Shown here one piece after another: positions 1-28,737 of a DNA stretch of 29,967 bases. The translations under genes and the position numbers were made by a program. Positions within the stretch are counted from its first letter, which is position 1; every line of letters starts with the position of its first letter. The notes below the pieces were generated by a model. That model ran no database searches, had not been told where the DNA came from, and was given only the letters and a program-made list of their open reading frames with translations. The DNA comes from a virus: the IMG/VR virus record IMGVR_UViG_3300037193_000528, positions 1 through 29,967 of that record. One strand, written 5' to 3'.

Positions 1-977
1 TGATCGAGGTCTTTATGGTCCAGGATTTTCGCCAGCGTCAACACATCCACGTGGAATCGCTTCGAGCGGGCCAGGAACGTGGCCGCTGTCGCCCGGCTGT
101 CGCGGAACTGCAAACCCTCGACCCTGCAGCGCTGACTCGCCGCGCGGAACACGTCGTCGCATCTGTCCCTCTTCACGGTGAACAGCGGGCCGCCCCAGCC
201 CTTCAGCGGACGCAGCAGGCGCGCCGCCGCAGAGGTCAGCGGTACCTCGCGTATCGCCCGAGTCGCGTGATAGGTCTTGCGCTTGATCTTCACAACGCGC
301 TTCACGAGGTCGGTGTTCTCGTCAGTCAGGCGCAGCAGCTCGGTCGTGCGCAGCCCGGTGCGCAGAGCCAGCAGGAACATGCAGGCAATCTGCTGCGGCT
401 TGGTGCTCGGCGCTTCGCCCGTCCGGTAGCCCAGGTCGCGCACGATCCGCTTGATTTCCATCCACGAGGCCCTGCGCGTGCGCGCCGGGTTGTCGCGCGG
501 CAGACGGACGCCTTCAAAGGGGTTTTTGTCGGTCATGCCCCACTCCAGGCGAGCCAGTCGCAGGATGTTGCGCAGCAAGACCACGTCGCGCCGCACGCTT
601 CCCTCCGACACCTGACTCAAACGCATGTCACGCCACGCGACGAAGTGGCACTTCTCGAACTCATACACGGGCCTGTGCAGCATGTCGCCGTAGCCGGGGA
701 GGTTGACGAACATCCGCTTGTAGGCCTCGATGCGCGTCTGCTCCGTACGAACGCCGACCTTTTTGGGCGACACATCCCTGCTGTACTTGTCGAAGAGCTG
801 TTCCAGGGTGGTGTTCGGGAACTTCCCGGTGCGGCCCGCCCGCATGTCCGCCTCCATCTGAACGGCGGCCTCGTCGCACTCCTTCTTCGTGCGCCGAGTG
901 ATCGACACTGCCTTGAAGCCCTTGACCCGAACCTGCCGGCGCCACATGCCGCTGGGCAGCTTTTCTGCTTCCGCCAT
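1..977 (-). CDS. int: Tyrosine recombinase (phage integrase), 3' end cut by window edge
   Basis: The reading frame starts at ATG 977 and stays open to base 1, giving 325 residues without the C-terminal end. A GAGGGG ribosome site lies a few bases upstream. The N-terminal part (to about 60) looks like an arm-type DNA-binding domain and about 60-160 like a core-binding domain. The catalytic domain shows the box I arginine (R210 in ALRTGLRTTELLRLT), a candidate beta-hairpin lysine (K234), the box II arginine (R295 in FRDSRAT) and the later histidine (H321 in LAKILDHKD). The nucleophilic tyrosine lies beyond the edge. The usual first histidine of HxxR is R292 here. It would catalyse integration and excision. 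It is divergent from the plus-strand operon and has the same orientation as the late genes. Confidence 0.93.
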   Translation of the reverse strand, partial: MAEAEKLPSGMWRRQVRVKGFKAVSITRRTKKECDEAAVQMEADMRAGRTGKFPNTTLEQLFDKYSRDVSPKKVGVRTEQTRIEAYKRMFVNLPGYGDMLHRPVYEFEKCHFVAWRDMRLSQVSEGSVRRDVVLLRNILRLARLEWGMTDKNPFEGVRLPRDNPARTRRASWMEIKRIVRDLGYRTGEAPSTKPQQIACMFLLALRTGLRTTELLRLTDENTDLVKRVVKIKRKTYHATRAIREVPLTSAAARLLRPLKGWGGPLFTVKRDRCDDVFRAASQRCRVEGLQFRDSRATAATFLARSKRFHVDVLTLAKILDHKDLD

Positions 978-1020
978 CGCGTTACCCCTCGTGAAGTGAA
1001 TGAAGTGAAGCCTCTGATCC

Positions 1021-1988: not shown

Positions 1989-2675
1989 ATGACATACGTC
2001 ACCAACGGACTCAGCTTCAACACACTGCGCGAGGCCAACGCCGCCCGCCTGCCTGAGTTCAAGAACAGCCGAGGGCAGCCAGCCCATCAGAAGATCGACG
2101 GAAGCGACTGGAGCCCCGCCCAGTGGCTGCAGGCGGTCCTCGGAGAGCTGGGCGAGTGGGCCGTAACACGGCTCGACTACGAGAGCGGCCTGATTGACTT
2201 CAACGAGTACACCGTACGTTCGACCAAAGAGCTGGCCGATGTCGTGATCTATCTCGACATTCTGGCGCGCCGATCGCTCGACCAGCTCAGCCCTTACCAA
2301 GTCGAGGGCCGGCAATGCCAAGGTCATCCGTTCGAGAACTGCCCAAGCCAAGCTTTGATGCGCGTCGTCGCGCTGCTCGGCACTTACGCCAACCACCGCA
2401 AGAAGCTGGAGCGAGGCGACTACACCCCGGCCGAATACGCCTCTCACAAGATTCCGCTGATGCATCAGCTCGCGTGGCAGACCGCCCAGCTCGTCGAGAG
2501 CGAGGCCAAGCCGCTCGCCATGCCGCACCCCGGCGACGTGGTGGTGCAGGCACACCCGACCGGCGTGAACCTGAGCCTCGCGACCGTGGACAAGTTCAAC
2601 GAGGTGTCCGAGCGCGTGGGCTCCAACGTACGCATCGCCGCCGACGACTGGTACTACCACGACAGCATGGGTTGA
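1989..2675 (+). CDS. MazG-like nucleotide pyrophosphohydrolase
   Basis: This gene encodes 228 residues. ATG 1989 was chosen because a GGGAAGG ribosome site precedes it. Residues 41-100 match the all-alpha NTP pyrophosphohydrolase pattern: E53xxE56 (LGELGEWA), then E81xxD84 (KELADVVIYLD). This is the EXXE-12to28-EXXD magnesium site of the MazG/dUTPase-like superfamily. Enzymes of this family hydrolyse (d)NTPs to monophosphates and pyrophosphate. Phage copies may sanitise or rebalance nucleotide pools or lower alarmone levels, and the substrate here cannot be told from sequence. The C-terminal 100 residues contain further helices and a tail ending WYYHDSMG that I do not recognise. Its position in an early-type operon next to integrase fits a host-takeover role. 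Confidence 0.82.
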   Translation: MTYVTNGLSFNTLREANAARLPEFKNSRGQPAHQKIDGSDWSPAQWLQAVLGELGEWAVTRLDYESGLIDFNEYTVRSTKELADVVIYLDILARRSLDQLSPYQVEGRQCQGHPFENCPSQALMRVVALLGTYANHRKKLERGDYTPAEYASHKIPLMHQLAWQTAQLVESEAKPLAMPHPGDVVVQAHPTGVNLSLATVDKFNEVSERVGSNVRIAADDWYYHDSMG

Positions 2676-2679
2676 GACC

Positions 2680-2901
2680 ATGAGCGAGCAGCCAGCGTTT
2701 CAAGTGGGCCAACGTGTCGTGAAGGTCGTCGGCTACTGCGTCCATGGCGTCGTGCGCTCGGTCTTTCAAACCAGTCGCGGCGAGTGGCGGCTCGTCGTCG
2801 AGATCCCCGCCGAGCGGGGCACCAGCTTCTGCCACATCTTCAATGCCAGCCAGCTCGCGCCGGACCAAGCCGCGCCGGGAGGCAGCGGGAGCAGTCCATG
2901 A
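2680..2901 (+). CDS. Small hypothetical protein, SH3-like beta barrel suspected
   Basis: The gene encodes 73 residues. It starts four bases after the MazG-like stop and ends in a four-base ATGA overlap with the next gene. The sequence VGQRVVKV...HGVVRSVF...GEWRLVVEI...SFCHIFNASQLAP has the alternating short strands and turn positions of small SH3-like barrels that bind nucleic acid or partners. This is a pattern-based guess. No catalytic motif, signal peptide or membrane segment is seen. The C-terminal ten residues are Gly/Ser/Pro rich and probably disordered. Confidence 0.7.
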   Translation: MSEQPAFQVGQRVVKVVGYCVHGVVRSVFQTSRGEWRLVVEIPAERGTSFCHIFNASQLAPDQAAPGGSGSSP

Positions 2902-3419
2902 AAGGCGACTGGCGGATGCTGCCGATGCCTGCGGTGTTCGAGGCCGACTTCGCTGCATGGCTACAGAGCCTGAGCCGCAAGGCTCGGGCCGTCGAGGCCA
3001 CGATGCATTGGACCGACCTCGGCCCCTTCGCCGTCAGTGCCTATAGCCTCCATGCTGATCTCGCGGGGCGCTACGAGTACCTTCGCCACCGTGGTCAGGC
3101 GCCCGTGATCCGGCCCGACGACACCACGCCCGAAGGCTTCTATCTCCTGGCGGTCGAGACCCGGCACCAGCAGATCGGGCTGCACCACCCCTTCGCTCCG
3201 ACGCCGTACGAACGGCTGAGCCCCTTCAGCCACTTCATCTATCAACGCATGGCCGATCGTGTGGCGGCTGCGGCGGGCTTCGGCTCGCCCAGCACACACA
3301 AGGCCTTGCTTGATGACGGCCTGGGCGATGGGCTTGACGACGGACTCGACGATGGGCTCGCCCTGGCCTCTGACGAAGACGGCCTCGACGCCGGGCTTGA
3401 TGACGGATTGGAGCTATGA
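2898..3419 (+). CDS. Hypothetical protein with C-terminal DGL repeat tail
   Basis: The gene encodes 173 residues from ATG 2898, overlapping the previous stop in ATGA. Residues 1-135 form an unrecognised globular domain with many aromatic residues. The last 36 residues are a low-complexity acidic tail built on Asp-Asp-Gly-Leu: DDGLGDGLDDGLDDGL, then EDGL, DAGL and DDGL. Four 12-bp units code for the first part (3312-3359). The four units use different synonymous codons for Gly and Leu, so the peptide pattern itself appears to be kept. The two following genes carry shorter versions of the same motif. Possible roles are protein-protein docking, a degradation or localisation tag, or an ancestral duplicated linker; none is established. 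Confidence 0.75.
   Translation: MKGDWRMLPMPAVFEADFAAWLQSLSRKARAVEATMHWTDLGPFAVSAYSLHADLAGRYEYLRHRGQAPVIRPDDTTPEGFYLLAVETRHQQIGLHHPFAPTPYERLSPFSHFIYQRMADRVAAAAGFGSPSTHKALLDDGLGDGLDDGLDDGLALASDEDGLDAGLDDGLEL
3312..3359 (+). repeat. Four tandem 12-bp units coding for DDGL-type tetrapeptides
   Basis: Units begin at 3312, 3324, 3336 and 3348. They encode DDGL, GDGL, DDGL and DDGL. Third-position bases differ between units (GGC, GGG, GGA, GGG for Gly; CTG, CTT, CTC, CTC for Leu). The sequence GACGGCCTGGG at 3315-3325 recurs exactly in the next two genes at 3671-3681 and 3865-3875. Confidence 0.8.
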
Positions 3420-3694
3420 AGAGCTTCGAGACGATCTCATCCTCATCGCTCTTTCTCGGCCCAGCGGCCAAGGGGCTCCCCGGCGTTGCCACGCTGTTCG
3501 AGGTCCACGGCCATCAGGCCATGATCGTGACGCCGAGCAACGCGACCCTCACTGCGCTTTGCAAGGAACTGGGAATCAAAGCCCCTATAGCAAACATCGC
3601 CGAGCCCGTCGTCGTCGTCTTGCGATCCATCAGGATGGAGCACGAGCAAGACGACGGGCTCGGCATTGACGACGGCCTGGGAGACGGACTTTGA
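3416..3694 (+). CDS. Hypothetical protein with DGL-repeat C-terminus
   Basis: The gene encodes 92 residues and starts at ATG 3416 in an ATGA overlap with the preceding stop. The first 75 residues are a compact, mostly hydrophobic alpha/beta-looking domain (for example PGVATLFEVHGHQAMIVTPS and EPVVVVLRSIRM). The end reads QDDGLGIDDGLGDGL, three DGL units reaching the stop codon. No known family is recognised. Translational coupling to the genes before and after makes co-production of the three DGL proteins likely. The start codon is within four bases of the previous tail, so tail and start evolve under joint constraint. Confidence 0.72.
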   Translation: MKSFETISSSSLFLGPAAKGLPGVATLFEVHGHQAMIVTPSNATLTALCKELGIKAPIANIAEPVVVVLRSIRMEHEQDDGLGIDDGLGDGL

Positions 3695-3945
3695 TTACAA
3701 GCAAACCTACGGGACACATCATGGACAGAAGCTTCCTAGACAGCCTGCTCGGCCCGTTTCCGATGAGCACGCCCCCTGTCCGCAAGGGGTTCTATGCCGT
3801 AGAGCTGAACGCAGGGCAGTTCGAGATGTGGTACTGGGACTGCACGCAGTGGCTCGACAGCGACGACGGCCTGGGTGACGTTCGAGATCCCGTCCGAGCC
3901 ATCGGCTGGTGGGGCAAGTTCCCGCCACCCGGCGACGGCCTCTAG
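3691..3945 (+). CDS. Hypothetical protein, last gene of the accessory operon, with DGL motifs
   Basis: The gene encodes 84 residues from TTG 3691, which overlaps the previous stop as TTGA and has GGGAG seven bases upstream. ATG 3721 (74 residues) is an alternative with a weaker ribosome site. A central segment KGFYAVELNAGQFEMWYWD has the aromatic beta-hairpin look of a small fold I cannot name. It is followed by WLDSDDGLGD and a final GDGL at the C-terminus, so it shares the DGL motif with the two genes before it. Its TAG stop (3943-3945) overlaps the TAG stop of the convergent spanin gene (3942-3944) in the palindrome CTAG. No transcription terminator separates the two units. Confidence 0.65.
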   Translation: MITSKPTGHIMDRSFLDSLLGPFPMSTPPVRKGFYAVELNAGQFEMWYWDCTQWLDSDDGLGDVRDPVRAIGWWGKFPPPGDGL

Positions 3946-5658: not shown

Positions 5659-5919
5659 TCAAGTCGCGATGAACACGACCGGTCGACTAGTTGACGCTGC
5701 CGCAGCATTTGGGCGCAGCACCTCGACGGCGAGCTGAGAGGTGCGGATCACGGTGCCGGTGTTGATCCGCAGCACCTCGACGGCGAGCTGAGACGCCTGA
5801 ACTTTGGCTGCCGTATTCGTGCGCAGCACCTCGACGGCGAGCTGGGACGCCTGAACTTTGGCTGCCGTATTCGTGCGCAGCACCTCGACGGCGAGCTGGG
5901 ACGCGCGAGCGACGGTCAT
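5659..5919 (-). CDS. Short repeat protein with SQLAVEVL motifs
   Basis: The gene encodes 86 residues and is coupled to the upstream gene by ATGA. Residues 6-77 are four copies of an 18-residue unit with core SQLAVEVLR, the linker being TNTAAKVQ in the first two. I recall similar small phage proteins with a repeated (S/T)Q-x-x-VEVL motif encoded just after a tail surface protein, but their role is not known to me. Alternating hydrophobic residues in each unit suggest one or two beta strands per repeat, perhaps a short fibrous or beta-helical piece at the virion surface. The C-terminal RPVVFIAT may be a capping strand. Confidence 0.75.
   Translation of the reverse strand: MTVARASQLAVEVLRTNTAAKVQASQLAVEVLRTNTAAKVQASQLAVEVLRINTGTVIRTSQLAVEVLRPNAAAASTSRPVVFIAT
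5714..5898 (-). repeat. 54-bp tandem repeat, four copies (last partial on the plus strand)
   Basis: A 23-base core (plus-strand start CGCAGCACCTCGACGGCGAG) begins at 5714, 5768, 5822 and 5876, exactly 54 bases apart and in frame (18 codons). The units starting at 5768 and 5822 are nearly identical at DNA level across and beyond the core; the linker of the unit starting at 5714 differs. This points to recent duplication and likely copy-number change between relatives. Confidence 0.9.
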
Positions 5920-23703: not shown

Positions 23704-23913
23704 TTACAGACCGTCGTTCTTGCTCTTCGTCTTCTTGGCGTCGTCAGCCTGAGTGGTAGCAGCAGCTTTCTTGTCATCGGCTGTGGCTTCCTCAATGAAA
23801 ACGCCGAGCAGCCCACTGGCTTGCCCAGTCTCCAGCGAGACGATCTCGCCGGGCCCGACTTCCTTCTTGTCAAGCTTGACCGCCTTGACGACCACGTAAT
23901 CCTTCTTTGCCAT
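23704..23913 (-). CDS. Small head-region protein ending in NDGL
   Basis: The gene encodes 69 residues from ATG 23913 with GGAG at eight bases. The N-terminal half (MAKKDYVVVKAVKLDKKEVGPGEIVSLETG) is beta-like and followed by a helical, Lys/Ala/Asp-rich low-complexity tail. It lies at the position of lambda FI, but is much shorter. The C-terminus ends KNDGL, like the DGL ends of the three accessory-operon proteins, which may be coincidence. Confidence 0.7.
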   Translation of the reverse strand: MAKKDYVVVKAVKLDKKEVGPGEIVSLETGQASGLLGVFIEEATADDKKAAATTQADDAKKTKSKNDGL

Positions 23914-23993: not shown

Positions 23994-25028
23994 TCAGTCG
24001 TCGATGACCTTGACGCGCATGGCCGCAGCAGGCCGCGACGGCACCATCAACGGGGCCGACTGGGTCATCACGAACTCGGCAGGCGGGTCCTCGCTGTAGA
24101 AGTTCTTCGGCCAGATGCTGGCAGGCCGATAGCCCGCCTTCGGGTCGAGAATGGCACCGAAGCAGCGCACACCTTCCACGCCGGCTGGGTTGATGAGGAC
24201 GAGGCTTTCGCTGTCCATCATGTCGACCGTGTTGCCGCTGTTGTCCTCGTAAATTTCGGCGTAGGTCCAGAACTCCAGCGGCCCGATCGTGCCGCGGAAC
24301 TGCACCGACTCGCCGTTGCCGAGGGCGGTTTCCATCGTGGCGCTCGACCCGCGGCGCGTATCGAGCTTGTCCTGAACCTGATCCTTCTCCTTGAAGACGG
24401 CCCAGGCGTCGAGACCCATGATGCACTTCGTGGGCGCATAGCCCGATGCCCGCTGCATGCGGATCATCCAAGCGTCGAGATCGTCGAGCACGTCCACCTT
24501 GCCGGCATCGTCCCAGGCATCCGTGGTGAGCAGTGCCAGCGTCTGGTTCGTCGGGCGCCCGAACGTCACGGTGACGCTCGGGTAGTCCTCGCCAGCGATC
24601 ACGACTTGATCGTCAAGGATGGCACACGCGGCCATCCATTCGAGACGACGAAAGATCATGTCGCGCTGCGTCACCGTGATGTCGGCGATCACCGCATTGC
24701 GGCGTGCCTCCATCGACATGTCGCCGCCGTAGCTCTCGCCCGGCATGCGCTTGATCAGACGCCGCGGATCGACGTTGTCCTTCGGCTTGATGTAGGCAGG
24801 CTTGAAGCGACGAGTCACGTAGCCCTCTTGCCGCATGGGCTTGCCCTGCGCCATCGGCGCAACGAAGGGCGCAAGCCGGCGCCCCTTGTCCACGAGGTCG
24901 AAGTCGATGAACTCAGTATCAAAAAGCGCTTCCCGGTTGAAGCACAGGTTCAGCCAGAACAGGTTGGGCGGGTTGACCTTGCGGACCACGCCGAGAAGTT
25001 CGTGAGTGTCGTAGGTGCCGACAGACAT
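23994..25028 (-). CDS. E: Major capsid protein, lambda E family
   Basis: The gene encodes 344 residues (lambda E has 341). ATG 25028 follows AGGAGAG. Family landmarks are FFW.NLCFNREALFDTEFIDFDLVDKGRRLAPFVAP, QEGYVTRRFKPAYIKPKD, and the LEWMAACAILDDQVVI segment with the central helix. Later segments carry the beta-rich domain with the FWTYAEIYEDNSGN part. It builds the icosahedral HK97-fold shell, stabilised by the decoration protein encoded just upstream in the transcript. No N-terminal scaffold extension is present; the scaffold is made from a nested start in the protease gene. Confidence 0.95.
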   Translation of the reverse strand: MSVGTYDTHELLGVVRKVNPPNLFWLNLCFNREALFDTEFIDFDLVDKGRRLAPFVAPMAQGKPMRQEGYVTRRFKPAYIKPKDNVDPRRLIKRMPGESYGGDMSMEARRNAVIADITVTQRDMIFRRLEWMAACAILDDQVVIAGEDYPSVTVTFGRPTNQTLALLTTDAWDDAGKVDVLDDLDAWMIRMQRASGYAPTKCIMGLDAWAVFKEKDQVQDKLDTRRGSSATMETALGNGESVQFRGTIGPLEFWTYAEIYEDNSGNTVDMMDSESLVLINPAGVEGVRCFGAILDPKAGYRPASIWPKNFYSEDPPAEFVMTQSAPLMVPSRPAAAMRVKVIDD

Positions 25029-25955: not shown

Positions 25956-26873
25956 TGCAAACTCCTGGGTTGAAGAGCCGGATAGCTCGTTTGAAAAGGC
26001 AACCACTGCCGCCATCGGCGACTCGACTGCATCAATGAAACCGACCTCCAAAGCGTCGGGCCCGTTGTAGACGCGCGCTTCGGTTGCAAGCACGGCGTCG
26101 ATAGTCATCGAGCGATTGCGCGCAACCTCCGTCGCAAAGCGCTCACGAAGCGTCTCAAGTTCGGCTTGCCATTCCTTGCGCACCGACTCGGGCAACGGCT
26201 GGTACGGGTTGCCATCCACCTTGTGCTCACCCGCATGCAGCAGGGAGACCTTGATGCCGTTCTTTTCAAGAAATCCGCTGTAGTCGACGTGCACCAGCAC
26301 GACACCCACTGAGCCGACGTAGGAGCTTTCAATGGCGCTCATGCGGCCCGCCGCCGATGCGACGGCATAGCCTGCAGAGCACGAATTCGCATTCGCCAGG
26401 GCAAGCGTCGGCTTGGTCGCGCGCTGATCGTGCATCCACGCGGCCAGCTCCATGCAGCCTTGCGCCTCGCCGCCAAACGAGTCCACGTCGAAGACGACGG
26501 CGCGAACGTTCGTGTCCGCTAAGGCAGCGGAGTACGCGTCGCGCAGGTAGTCATAGCCAGTGAAGTAGGCGCAGGCCCAGCCGCACTTGTTGAACAGCAT
26601 CCCCCACACGGGAATGAACGCGAGCCCGTTGTCCGACTTGGCGTACAGCTTCTCGTCGTAGAAGGCCCACTGCTGGTCCGTGGGCAGTCCTGCGTAACGA
26701 CGTGCCAGCCCGGCCGTGTAGCTCGCGATGTGCTCAGCAGTCGGGTCTTCGTTGCCGAGCGCGAGCGCTGCCTGCACGACGCTCGCGAGGCCCGTGTACG
26801 ACGCAGACAACGCCATGGCGGCAGCACTGCTGCTGCGACCGATGAAACCGTAGATGGGGTTCAGGGCCGTCAT
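25509..26873 (-). CDS. C: Capsid protease of the S49 family with scaffold tail (lambda C-like)
   Basis: The gene encodes 454 residues (lambda C has 439). Serine Ser166 in NANSCSAGYAVA and Lys218 in AGEHKVDGNPYQPL fit the Ser/Lys dyad of the short SppA/S49 signal-peptide-peptidase class. DSFGGEAQG (131-139) provides the glycine-rich turn near the oxyanion. Residues 307-454 form a Gln/Ala/Thr-rich, then helical, tail that resembles a scaffold. An internal start there (ATG 25955) would make the scaffold alone. The protease matures the procapsid by cutting scaffold and itself. It is coupled to the portal gene by an ATGA overlap. Confidence 0.92.
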   Translation of the reverse strand: MTALNPIYGFIGRSSSAAAMALSASYTGLASVVQAALALGNEDPTAEHIASYTAGLARRYAGLPTDQQWAFYDEKLYAKSDNGLAFIPVWGMLFNKCGWACAYFTGYDYLRDAYSAALADTNVRAVVFDVDSFGGEAQGCMELAAWMHDQRATKPTLALANANSCSAGYAVASAAGRMSAIESSYVGSVGVVLVHVDYSGFLEKNGIKVSLLHAGEHKVDGNPYQPLPESVRKEWQAELETLRERFATEVARNRSMTIDAVLATEARVYNGPDALEVGFIDAVESPMAAVVAFSNELSGSSTQEFAMTTPQKPGAQATSDATTQTATAEQQQQQPASQQTAATSAASTTAKQPSAGDERLRIKAIQGCEEAKGREQLASHLAFETSMSVDEAKALLAASPKAVASEAASNPFAAAMAATPNPNVGADGSQADANDDKTAALLRDYGAATGRSFK

Positions 26874-28525
26874 TGCTCGGTCTCCGTTTCGCTCTCGTCG
26901 TCCTGCTGCTCGTCACCCTGCTTGTCACCCTGCTGCTTGCTCTTCGCCCCCACCTCGGCCACGGCGAGCTGCGTCGGGACGATCTCGATGCCGAGCTGCT
27001 TGCGCAACTTCTTCTCGCGCGCCTGCTGCGCGAACACGTCGCGGAAGTCCTTGCCCGTGCGGCTGATCTCTTCTTCGTAGGTCGACAGGCCCTTCTCGAT
27101 GCGCAGCACCGCGGCTTGCGTTTCCTTCAGCTCGTCGATCTGCCCACGCGAGGCGCCGATCCAGTCGCACTTGCAGTACGCCTCCTTGTTGAGGCCTTCG
27201 TAGAAGTGCGAGGCGTTCTTGCCGGCAGGCAGCGGCGCATTGCCGGCGTTGATCTGCTCTTCGAGCCACAGCGAATAGACGGCGGACGCGAAGCGATCCG
27301 CGAACATCTTCTTGCGCGACTGCATGAACTTCCACGTCTCGACCATGGACGCCCGCGCCGACGAGTAGTTCGTCTTCGTGTAGTCCTTCGAGAACTGCTC
27401 ATAGCTCAGCCCGAGCGATGACGCGACGTAGCGCAGCAACGCCTGCTCGAAGTCGGTGCCGACCCCGCCCGGCGTGCCCATCGGCTTGAGGTTGAGCTTG
27501 GTGCCCGGAAACAGGTGGGGGATCTTCACCCCGTCGATGTGCAGGTTCTTCGAGCCGCCCGTGTAAGCAGCCAGGGCGTTCAGGTACAGCTCGACGCCGT
27601 TGTCACCCGTCCCCTGGCCGAGCTGCTGCCACAGCGTTTCCGTGGGCAGCTCGGACTCGATGGCCGCGGCATAGGTCGCGTTGACGACAGCGTTCTGCAA
27701 CACCACGTCGCGGAACTTCTTCGTCATCTTCATTTCTTTGAGCGCCGACACCATCGAGCTGATGCCGCGCGACTGATCGGGCTGCATCTGCTCGTAGATG
27801 TGGATGACTTGCAAGCGGCCCCACGGCTTGCGGAAGGGCACACGAACCCATTCCCAGTTGGCCGGGTTGTCGCTGTAGAACTCCGAGGGATGAGTCCGGC
27901 GGATGTGCGCCGCGATCGGCGCACCTCGGAAATCACGCTCGATGCCGCGACGCATGTAGGCCGTGTCGTCGTAGCCGTGCGGGTTGCTCAGACGATCGAG
28001 GTGGACCATCTGGATCGCAGTGTTTGACGGCCGGCGCTCGTTGTCTTTGAGAATCCACTCCACCGCCGACAACGACTCGCCCGCCAGGACACCGAGACCG
28101 ACCACCATGCGCACCAAACCCGTCAGGGTGTTCAACCGACTCGCATCGGGCCAGTTGTCGGGTGACTCAGCCCACAGGGTGAAGTTCTTCTCAGCCCACT
28201 CCTGAAACTCTTCGGCCCAGGTCTCGTCGGCGCCGAGCACCTTCCAATCTGGCTGCGCGTTGACGCGATACAGGCCGCCGACGATCGAGTCTCGATGCGT
28301 GGCGACAGCGCCGTTTGAGTAGCCGTCGTTGCGCACCATGTCGCGCATGCGCGCGTCGAGCGCCGACTTGTCGCGGTTCAGCTCCTGATCCGGCGATAGC
28401 AACGGCGGCTGCCACGTCGCCAGCTCACGCGAGAAGCGCGAAGCGCCGTCGTAGGCGCCACCCATGGCTTTGACCGTGGCCCGCTCGATGGGGTACGCCT
28501 GTGCAGGGGTGAATACGGCGCCCAT
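26870..28525 (-). CDS. B: Portal protein, lambda B family
   Basis: The gene encodes 551 residues from ATG 28525, or 552 from GTG 28528; the start overlaps the gpW stop. The protein shows the lambda-type portal layout: N-terminal ERATVKAMGGAYDGASRFSREL, ELNRDKSALDARMRDMVRNDGYSNGAVATHRDSIVGGLY, then FLALLNTLTGLVRMVVGLGVLAGES-like sequence and LHYEQMQPDQSRG-like clip region. It ends in an acidic Gln-rich tail. It forms the dodecameric DNA channel at the capsid vertex and binds the terminase. It is followed by the protease gene in the same transcript. Confidence 0.93.
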   Translation of the reverse strand: MGAVFTPAQAYPIERATVKAMGGAYDGASRFSRELATWQPPLLSPDQELNRDKSALDARMRDMVRNDGYSNGAVATHRDSIVGGLYRVNAQPDWKVLGADETWAEEFQEWAEKNFTLWAESPDNWPDASRLNTLTGLVRMVVGLGVLAGESLSAVEWILKDNERRPSNTAIQMVHLDRLSNPHGYDDTAYMRRGIERDFRGAPIAAHIRRTHPSEFYSDNPANWEWVRVPFRKPWGRLQVIHIYEQMQPDQSRGISSMVSALKEMKMTKKFRDVVLQNAVVNATYAAAIESELPTETLWQQLGQGTGDNGVELYLNALAAYTGGSKNLHIDGVKIPHLFPGTKLNLKPMGTPGGVGTDFEQALLRYVASSLGLSYEQFSKDYTKTNYSSARASMVETWKFMQSRKKMFADRFASAVYSLWLEEQINAGNAPLPAGKNASHFYEGLNKEAYCKCDWIGASRGQIDELKETQAAVLRIEKGLSTYEEEISRTGKDFRDVFAQQAREKKLRKQLGIEIVPTQLAVAEVGAKSKQQGDKQGDEQQDDESETETEQ

Positions 28526-28737
28526 CACATGTACGGGCGCAGGGGGCCGCGAGAGATGATGGATTCAGCCACGGCCATTTCAAGCTCTTCGATGTAAGCG
28601 CGCAGCCCGGCCACGTTGGCCGAGGTGAACTCGACCCGCTCGCCGTTTTGGTCCACCACCACGCGCGCACTGCGCCCGGTGCGCAGCTCATGCATCGCGG
28701 CCTTTGCTTGCACTAGCAGCTCAGCATTCGTCGCCAC
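28525..28737 (-). CDS. W: Head-tail joining protein gpW
   Basis: The gene encodes 70 residues (lambda W has 68) from GTG 28737. AAGGA precedes the start. The sequence is close to the lambda W pattern: ELLVQAKAAMHELRTGRSARVVVDQNGERVEFTSANVAGLRAYIEELEMA, then RRGP-like SRGPLRPYM. gpW fits between portal and tail and stabilises packaged DNA. It lies between portal and terminase as in lambda. Confidence 0.93.
   Translation of the reverse strand: MATNAELLVQAKAAMHELRTGRSARVVVDQNGERVEFTSANVAGLRAYIEELEMAVAESIISRGPLRPYM

Follow-up and report, generated by a model that had tools for sequence, protein, structure and literature searches.

Acidic-hydrophobic C-terminal tips in Casjensviridae-like phages and the DGL tails of three small early proteins

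Introduction

Why would three adjacent small phage proteins all carry repeated Asp-Gly-Leu (DGL) units near their C-termini? The question arose from an earlier note on a 29,967-base linear virus record, analysed here over its full length and referred to as the window, which corresponds to about half of a Casjensviridae-like phage. We examined the three genes, their genomic context and the C-termini of related phages, and propose that in its DGL tails the window phage has its own form of a tip found across Casjensviridae-like phages, which would serve as a docking peptide.

Results

Three overlapping early genes with DGL tails

The locus comprises the following features.

2898..3419, plus strand: orphan gene 1, 173 amino acids; tail from about 3309 to 3416 with six DGL units and one AGL unit, ending in DDGLEL before the stop.
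3312..3413, plus strand: DGL array of gene 1, made of 12-bp units and in part of a duplicated 24-bp stretch; the codons diverge, with the peptide kept.
3416..3694, plus strand: orphan gene 2, 92 amino acids; three DGL units, ending in DDGLGIDDGLGDGL before the stop; start codon ATG overlapping the gene 1 stop (ATGA).
3691..3945, plus strand: orphan gene 3, 84 amino acids from a TTG start; one internal DGL, ending in PPPGDGL before the stop.

Recounting confirmed the coordinates and unit numbers given in the earlier note (six DGL and one AGL in gene 2898, three DGL in gene 3416 and two in gene 3691). Measured against the composition of the window's late genes, these DGL counts have Poisson probabilities of 3e-10, 1e-5 and 7e-4, respectively. 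Genes 3416 and 3691 terminate exactly in GDGL, with few acidic residues adjoining the tip of the latter; the internal DGL of gene 3691 sits in WLDSDDGLGDV and may be a coincidence. Codon-usage scores favour the given frames for all three genes, weakly so for gene 3691, in which a later ATG at 3721 is a possible alternative start. Translational coupling would fit the way in which start and stop codons overlap (ATGA at 3416, TTGA at 3691).

Comparison with databases, suggested in the earlier note as a check, gave a divided answer: the DGL tail has parallels in related phages, described below, while no homologues of the three proteins were detected in annotated phages, viral contigs or the contigs of relatives. 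Gene 2898 had no Pfam or PHROG match, and gene 3691 matched weakly to phrog_26541, a PHROG of unknown function. A weak tail match in L016, consisting of EDGYADGKDEGY repeats, was rejected as an unrelated repeat protein. DNA pattern scans for DDGL[GD]DGL returned mostly non-coding or unrelated frames, and a scan for DGLxDGL followed by a stop gave two matches, both irrelevant. The AlphaFold single-sequence model of gene 2898 alone was of no use (mean pLDDT 40). An 82-amino-acid protein encoded at L155:4025-4273 (minus strand), which ends in IELEL, contains GWYDT..WWNGEYWQ, resembling GFYAVE..MWYWDCTQW of gene 3691, and on this resemblance could possibly be a distant relative.

The window belongs to a Casjensviridae-like phage

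The terminase, portal, S49 protease, decoration and capsid genes of the window match Casjensviridae, with the following genes used for placement and context.

26870..28528, minus strand: portal protein, sharing about 60% identity with portals of Casjensviridae; used to place the phage.
23994..25028, minus strand: major capsid protein (Phage_cap_E); served to find relatives.
1998..2675, plus strand: putative MazG-like gene, upstream in the operon of 2898/3416/3691; so called from motif reading and synteny with AhaSv only.

The portal is approximately 58-62% identical to those of Xanthomonas phage AhaSv, Stenotrophomonas phage Suzuki, Burkholderia phage AH2 and others, and for the closest contig (L002/L064) identity is 84% (portal) and 90% (capsid). 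The genes are arranged as in AhaSv and AH2, where early and lysis genes likewise converge. By its portal, capsid and terminase and by this convergent order, the phage fits Casjensviridae. The annotated members compared here measure 55-62 kb, so about half of the genome lies outside the window, including the replication genes, among them those for SSB (single-stranded DNA-binding protein), exonuclease and primase, and the small terminase gene. A scan of a genome collection with the window portal gave one distant Sphingomonas MAG locus. The MazG-like gene had no Pfam match, and a scan with its protein recovered no relative.

An open frame at window positions 1-990 (minus strand, running off the left end) reads like a tyrosine integrase, on which reading the phage may be temperate; AH2 likewise has an annotated integrase. 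In L064, two copies of the head-decoration gene flank the capsid gene (L064:4587-4976 and L064:2464-2838), with 84% and 58% identity to the single copy in the window.

A fourth DGL protein at the FI position

A further DGL protein, absent from the earlier note, is encoded far from the early genes.

23704..23913, minus strand: FI-position gene, 69 amino acids, MAKKDYVVVKAV...KSKNDGL before the stop; directly after the major capsid gene.

Like lambda FI, a DNA packaging chaperone, this gene directly follows the major capsid gene, and it is likened to FI by position alone. Among approximately 32 genes in the window, exact DGL ends were found on three proteins (3416, 3691 and 23704), the FI-like protein and two early proteins, and no other called window gene ends in DGL. 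An acidic run followed by a terminal hydrophobic residue is present at the extreme C-terminus of all four tails (GDGL, GDGL and NDGL; DDGLEL in gene 2898). Under a strict generic definition of such a tip the window is only mildly enriched, and the case rests on DGL specifically and on the relatives.

Homologues of the FI-like protein hold [DE]GL or D-D-L ends across diverged linkers. The L064 homologue ends in KTSDGL (SDGL in both L064 and L002), keeping this end although the preceding linker has diverged, and the L073 homologue ends in KTEDGL; further ends in the family are AEGL (AH2), EEDL (UF_RH7), SDDL, KDEL, DDGLGG and DLGL. The AhaSv protein ends in GKQGAGK, lacking the tip. The wider family thus often keeps an acidic-hydrophobic end, though not in every member.

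Unrelated DNA-handling proteins of one phage share a tip

In Casjensviridae, a run of Asp/Glu(/Gly) followed by one final hydrophobic residue was found on the gp2.5-like single-stranded DNA-binding protein (SSB), exonucleases, primase, sometimes helicase, small terminase, FI-like protein and several small orphans. The final residue is largely genome-specific, being L, V, or I and/or F depending on the genome; the expectation for any one genome is about 0.5 acidic-[LVIF] ends. In Pseudomonas phage UF_RH7, 12 proteins have acidic-L ends and none an acidic-V end, and in Klebsiella phage Soft nine have acidic-V ends (about 0.2 expected) and none an acidic-L end, a difference with a Fisher probability of 3e-6. 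The individual ends are as follows.

UF_RH7: SSB DEDGL, exonuclease MDDDL, primase VDDDL, helicase DDDDL, small terminase EDEDL, FI-like EEDL.
UF_RH7, continued: second exonuclease EDDEL, methyltransferase AADEL, small proteins EDEEL, EDDEL, EEDDL and EGDGL.
Soft: SSB DDDV, exonuclease DDDV, primase DDEV, small terminase DDEV, FI-like DEEV, putative RecT EDDV, and others.

Cronobacter phage JC01 is mixed, with three acidic-I and three acidic-F ends. In AH2 the SSB ends in DPADGL, the small terminase in DPAEGL, a ParB-like protein in DPADDL and RusA in EIDDDL. Contig L075, a relative of the window (57% at the capsid), has five DGL/DGLGL ends, on the primase (TGDGL), small terminase (DEDGL), portal (SHDGL) and two small proteins (QGDGL and DDGLGL); its SSB, which ends in DDDPFA, lacks DGL, and the tip of a genome therefore need not be that of its SSB. 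Several SSBs do end in DGL, among them those of UF_RH7 (DEDGL), AH2 (PADGL), L181 (DDGL), L213 (DDGL) and L217 (ADGL), and 50 distinct SSBs taken from viral contigs have acidic C-termini with a mostly hydrophobic final residue. The tips are weak or absent in L085g and L107g, and the ends of the AhaSv small terminase and FI-like protein differ.

In three annotated genomes, the terminase large subunit, VRR nuclease, portal and DNA polymerase are without a tip. Casjensviridae DNA polymerase C-termini are often conserved as ..FYRKD or FYKKD (YRKD/YKKD), opposite in charge to the tips of the other replication proteins. In the AhaSv SSB (L069:49020-49820), acidic blocks alternate with RS/SK-rich blocks; the protein contains an internal DDDDDGLGDDDDDD and ends in DDDDLGI.

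Agreement of the last residue between unrelated proteins of the same genome was assessed by permutation, with rows sharing the last three residues collapsed first for the SSB, exonuclease and primase comparisons. The last residue agrees in 12 of 17 cases for SSB and exonuclease (5.6 expected, P 5e-4), in 15 of 17 for SSB and primase (7.5 expected, P 1.5e-4) and beyond expectation for exonuclease and primase (P 5e-3); FI-like protein and small terminase agree in 12 of 15 (7.2 expected, P 7e-3), and all of these tests remove phylogeny only partly. On these comparisons, the last residue is matched between unrelated proteins of one genome in the relatives. The tip occurs on 19 of 33 DNA/packaging proteins and on 0 of 67 virion/lysis proteins in the three annotated genomes, which are related to one another. 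By annotation, its carriers there are DNA and packaging proteins together with small orphans, to the exclusion of virion and lysis proteins. In the control phages T7, D3, YuA and lambda, whose genes were called by the same program, the tips numbered 0-3, were scattered and did not agree in their last residue, although D3 showed a nominal enrichment (P 0.012).

Discussion

A proposed docking peptide for DNA-transaction proteins

Tails of this kind are known from other systems. The tip that ends the bacterial SSB (SSB-Ct, DDDIPF) is acidic-hydrophobic and is read by many partners. There, a single carrier has many readers; in Casjensviridae there are many carriers, and DGL/DDL/DEV differs from IPF. 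A closer case is T7, in which the SSB gp2.5 (ending in EDGDF) and the helicase-primase gp4 (ending in NDTDF) both carry an acidic run and one final hydrophobic residue. The docking partner in T7 is the polymerase: basic patches of gp5 receive the gp4 tails (PMC12593628), and the gp2.5 tail is implicated in contact with the polymerase and the primase-helicase (PMC5686142). With these tails as the closest case, the statement in the earlier note that no system of this kind had been described is too strong. The T7 tip is observed on two proteins, both ending in F, whereas a Casjensviridae genome can have as many as about 12 carriers, some of them packaging proteins or small orphans, with a last residue that varies between genomes, and gene 2898 holds tandem copies.

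A Casjensviridae relative, Enterobacter phage Enc34, provides structures of an SSB (ORF6, DUF2815; 5ODJ/5ODK/5ODL) from the family of the examined Casjensviridae SSBs (E 1.6e-52 for the UF_RH7 SSB), with a similarly acidic, disordered C-terminus. In the available text of PMC5686142, its tail occupies the DNA-binding groove of a neighbouring molecule in the crystals and its deletion leads to dsDNA binding; the tail is treated there as the SSB's own, and a tip common to other phage proteins is not described. In the literature searched we likewise found no description of one tip common to many proteins of one phage. Acidic-hydrophobic docking tails are thus known in kind; as far as our literature searches reached, their spread over so many proteins, a last residue matched within the genome and their tandem multiplication are undescribed.

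We propose, with a probability of about 0.68, that the DGL tails represent, in the window phage, the Casjensviridae-like tip, a docking peptide for DNA-transaction proteins that would engage a shared partner. The proposal draws on sequence comparison and on analogy with the systems above. A shared docking peptide or common partner had been among the possibilities raised in the earlier note, and the comparison speaks for it: the last residue is matched on unrelated DNA-handling proteins, and DGL is a common form of the tip, including on SSBs. The tip would be a short linear peptide docking into one shared pocket on a phage-encoded hub, gathering DNA-transaction proteins at the replication or packaging machinery. 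Two candidates for the hub are the most likely. The phage DNA polymerase comes first, being itself without a tip and matching the T7 case, and the DNA-binding groove of the SSB comes second because of the position of the Enc34 tail in the crystals. The three small early proteins would then be clients or regulators of the hub, and the seven tandem units of gene 2898 would make it a multivalent client or competitor.

An alternative that dispenses with a common partner is electrostatic self-inhibition, in which the acidic tail folds onto the DNA-binding surface of its own protein as a DNA mimic. The groove-bound Enc34 tail and the dsDNA binding seen on its deletion can be read in this way, and the tips do occur on DNA-binding proteins. 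Self-inhibition does not, however, predict one common last residue on the unrelated proteins of one phage and another in other phages, and DNA binding is not known for the FI-like and small orphan proteins; we regard it as unlikely.

Somewhat less probable still is that the partner is a host protein, such as a protease or the reader of the host SSB tip, which would make the tail a host-read tag, as the earlier note had suggested, or a degron. Host SSB tips are likewise acidic-hydrophobic. Against this, Soft and JC01, both phages of enteric hosts, use V and I/F, with L in the Pseudomonas phage UF_RH7, and the restriction of the tip to DNA and packaging proteins suits replication rather than turnover. 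Many unrelated proteins carry the tip, and their common last residue changes from phage to phage even where the hosts are similar; one phage-encoded pocket co-evolving with the tip is the best explanation for this.

The docking proposal can be extended, tentatively and with the odds somewhat against it, to a tip-addressed network: one hub with a co-evolving pocket and a lineage-specific peptide on about a dozen proteins would couple replication, recombination and packaging, which orphans could join by gaining a tip, and multivalent members such as gene 2898 would scaffold or compete, tuning the network. If the docking proposal is right, a phage lineage would use one address peptide for its DNA-handling proteins, changed from lineage to lineage; the partner of small orphan phage proteins without homologues could be guessed from four C-terminal residues; and the hub pocket and its co-evolution could be tested directly with peptides in a well-sampled phage family.

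Origin of the array and the shared DNA word

Tandem Repeats Finder (TRF) identified a 24-bp array of 2.1 copies and a 12-bp array of 2.9 copies at 3308-3360, which makes tandem duplication the probable origin of the gene 2898 array. Such a structure, built by slippage or duplication, is also what a neutral expansion of a GC-rich microsatellite that happens to encode DGL would leave. The seven units of gene 2898 are nevertheless seven different 9-mers, with pS 0.84, pN 0.08 and a ratio of 0.095 (NG86-style), and the ratio over all 12 units is 0.06. This low ratio, together with the diverged synonymous spellings, indicates that the DGL peptide has been kept, bearing out the suggestion that it is under selection rather than a product of mere slippage. 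With ratios that do not fit an absence of selection, DGL at the ends of three separate genes, the distant FI-like gene among them, and parallels in related phages, a neutral expansion is very improbable. We consider it highly probable that the window tails are real, have been kept by selection and are related in kind to the family-wide tip, a judgement reached from sequence comparison.

The three early genes also share the DNA word GACGGCCTGGG, which occurs at 3315, 3671 and 3865, exactly as had been reported, and nowhere else in the window on either strand. From the codon usage of the window alone, DGLG would be spelled in this way with a probability of 0.21, and three of its four DGLG copies are so spelled. 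Because codon bias yields the word at this rate and mostly explains it, the 11-mer is only weak evidence for the relatedness or exchange that it had been taken to suggest, and we rejected it as a sign of DNA exchange. That the word is a DNA-level element, such as an iteron or recombination site, which codes only incidentally is scarcely credible: three exact copies do lie within about 560 bp, but synonymous sites are scrambled between units, codon bias accounts for the word at the above rate, and the DNA pattern of the DGL repeat is unmatched in the contigs of portal relatives.

Another repeat-bearing gene lies beside the tail-end genes of the window at 5659-5919 (minus strand). It encodes a small protein made of 3.5 copies of an 18-amino-acid repeat (ASQLAVEVLRTNTAAKVQ), and TRF places a corresponding array with a 54-bp period at 5714-5904.
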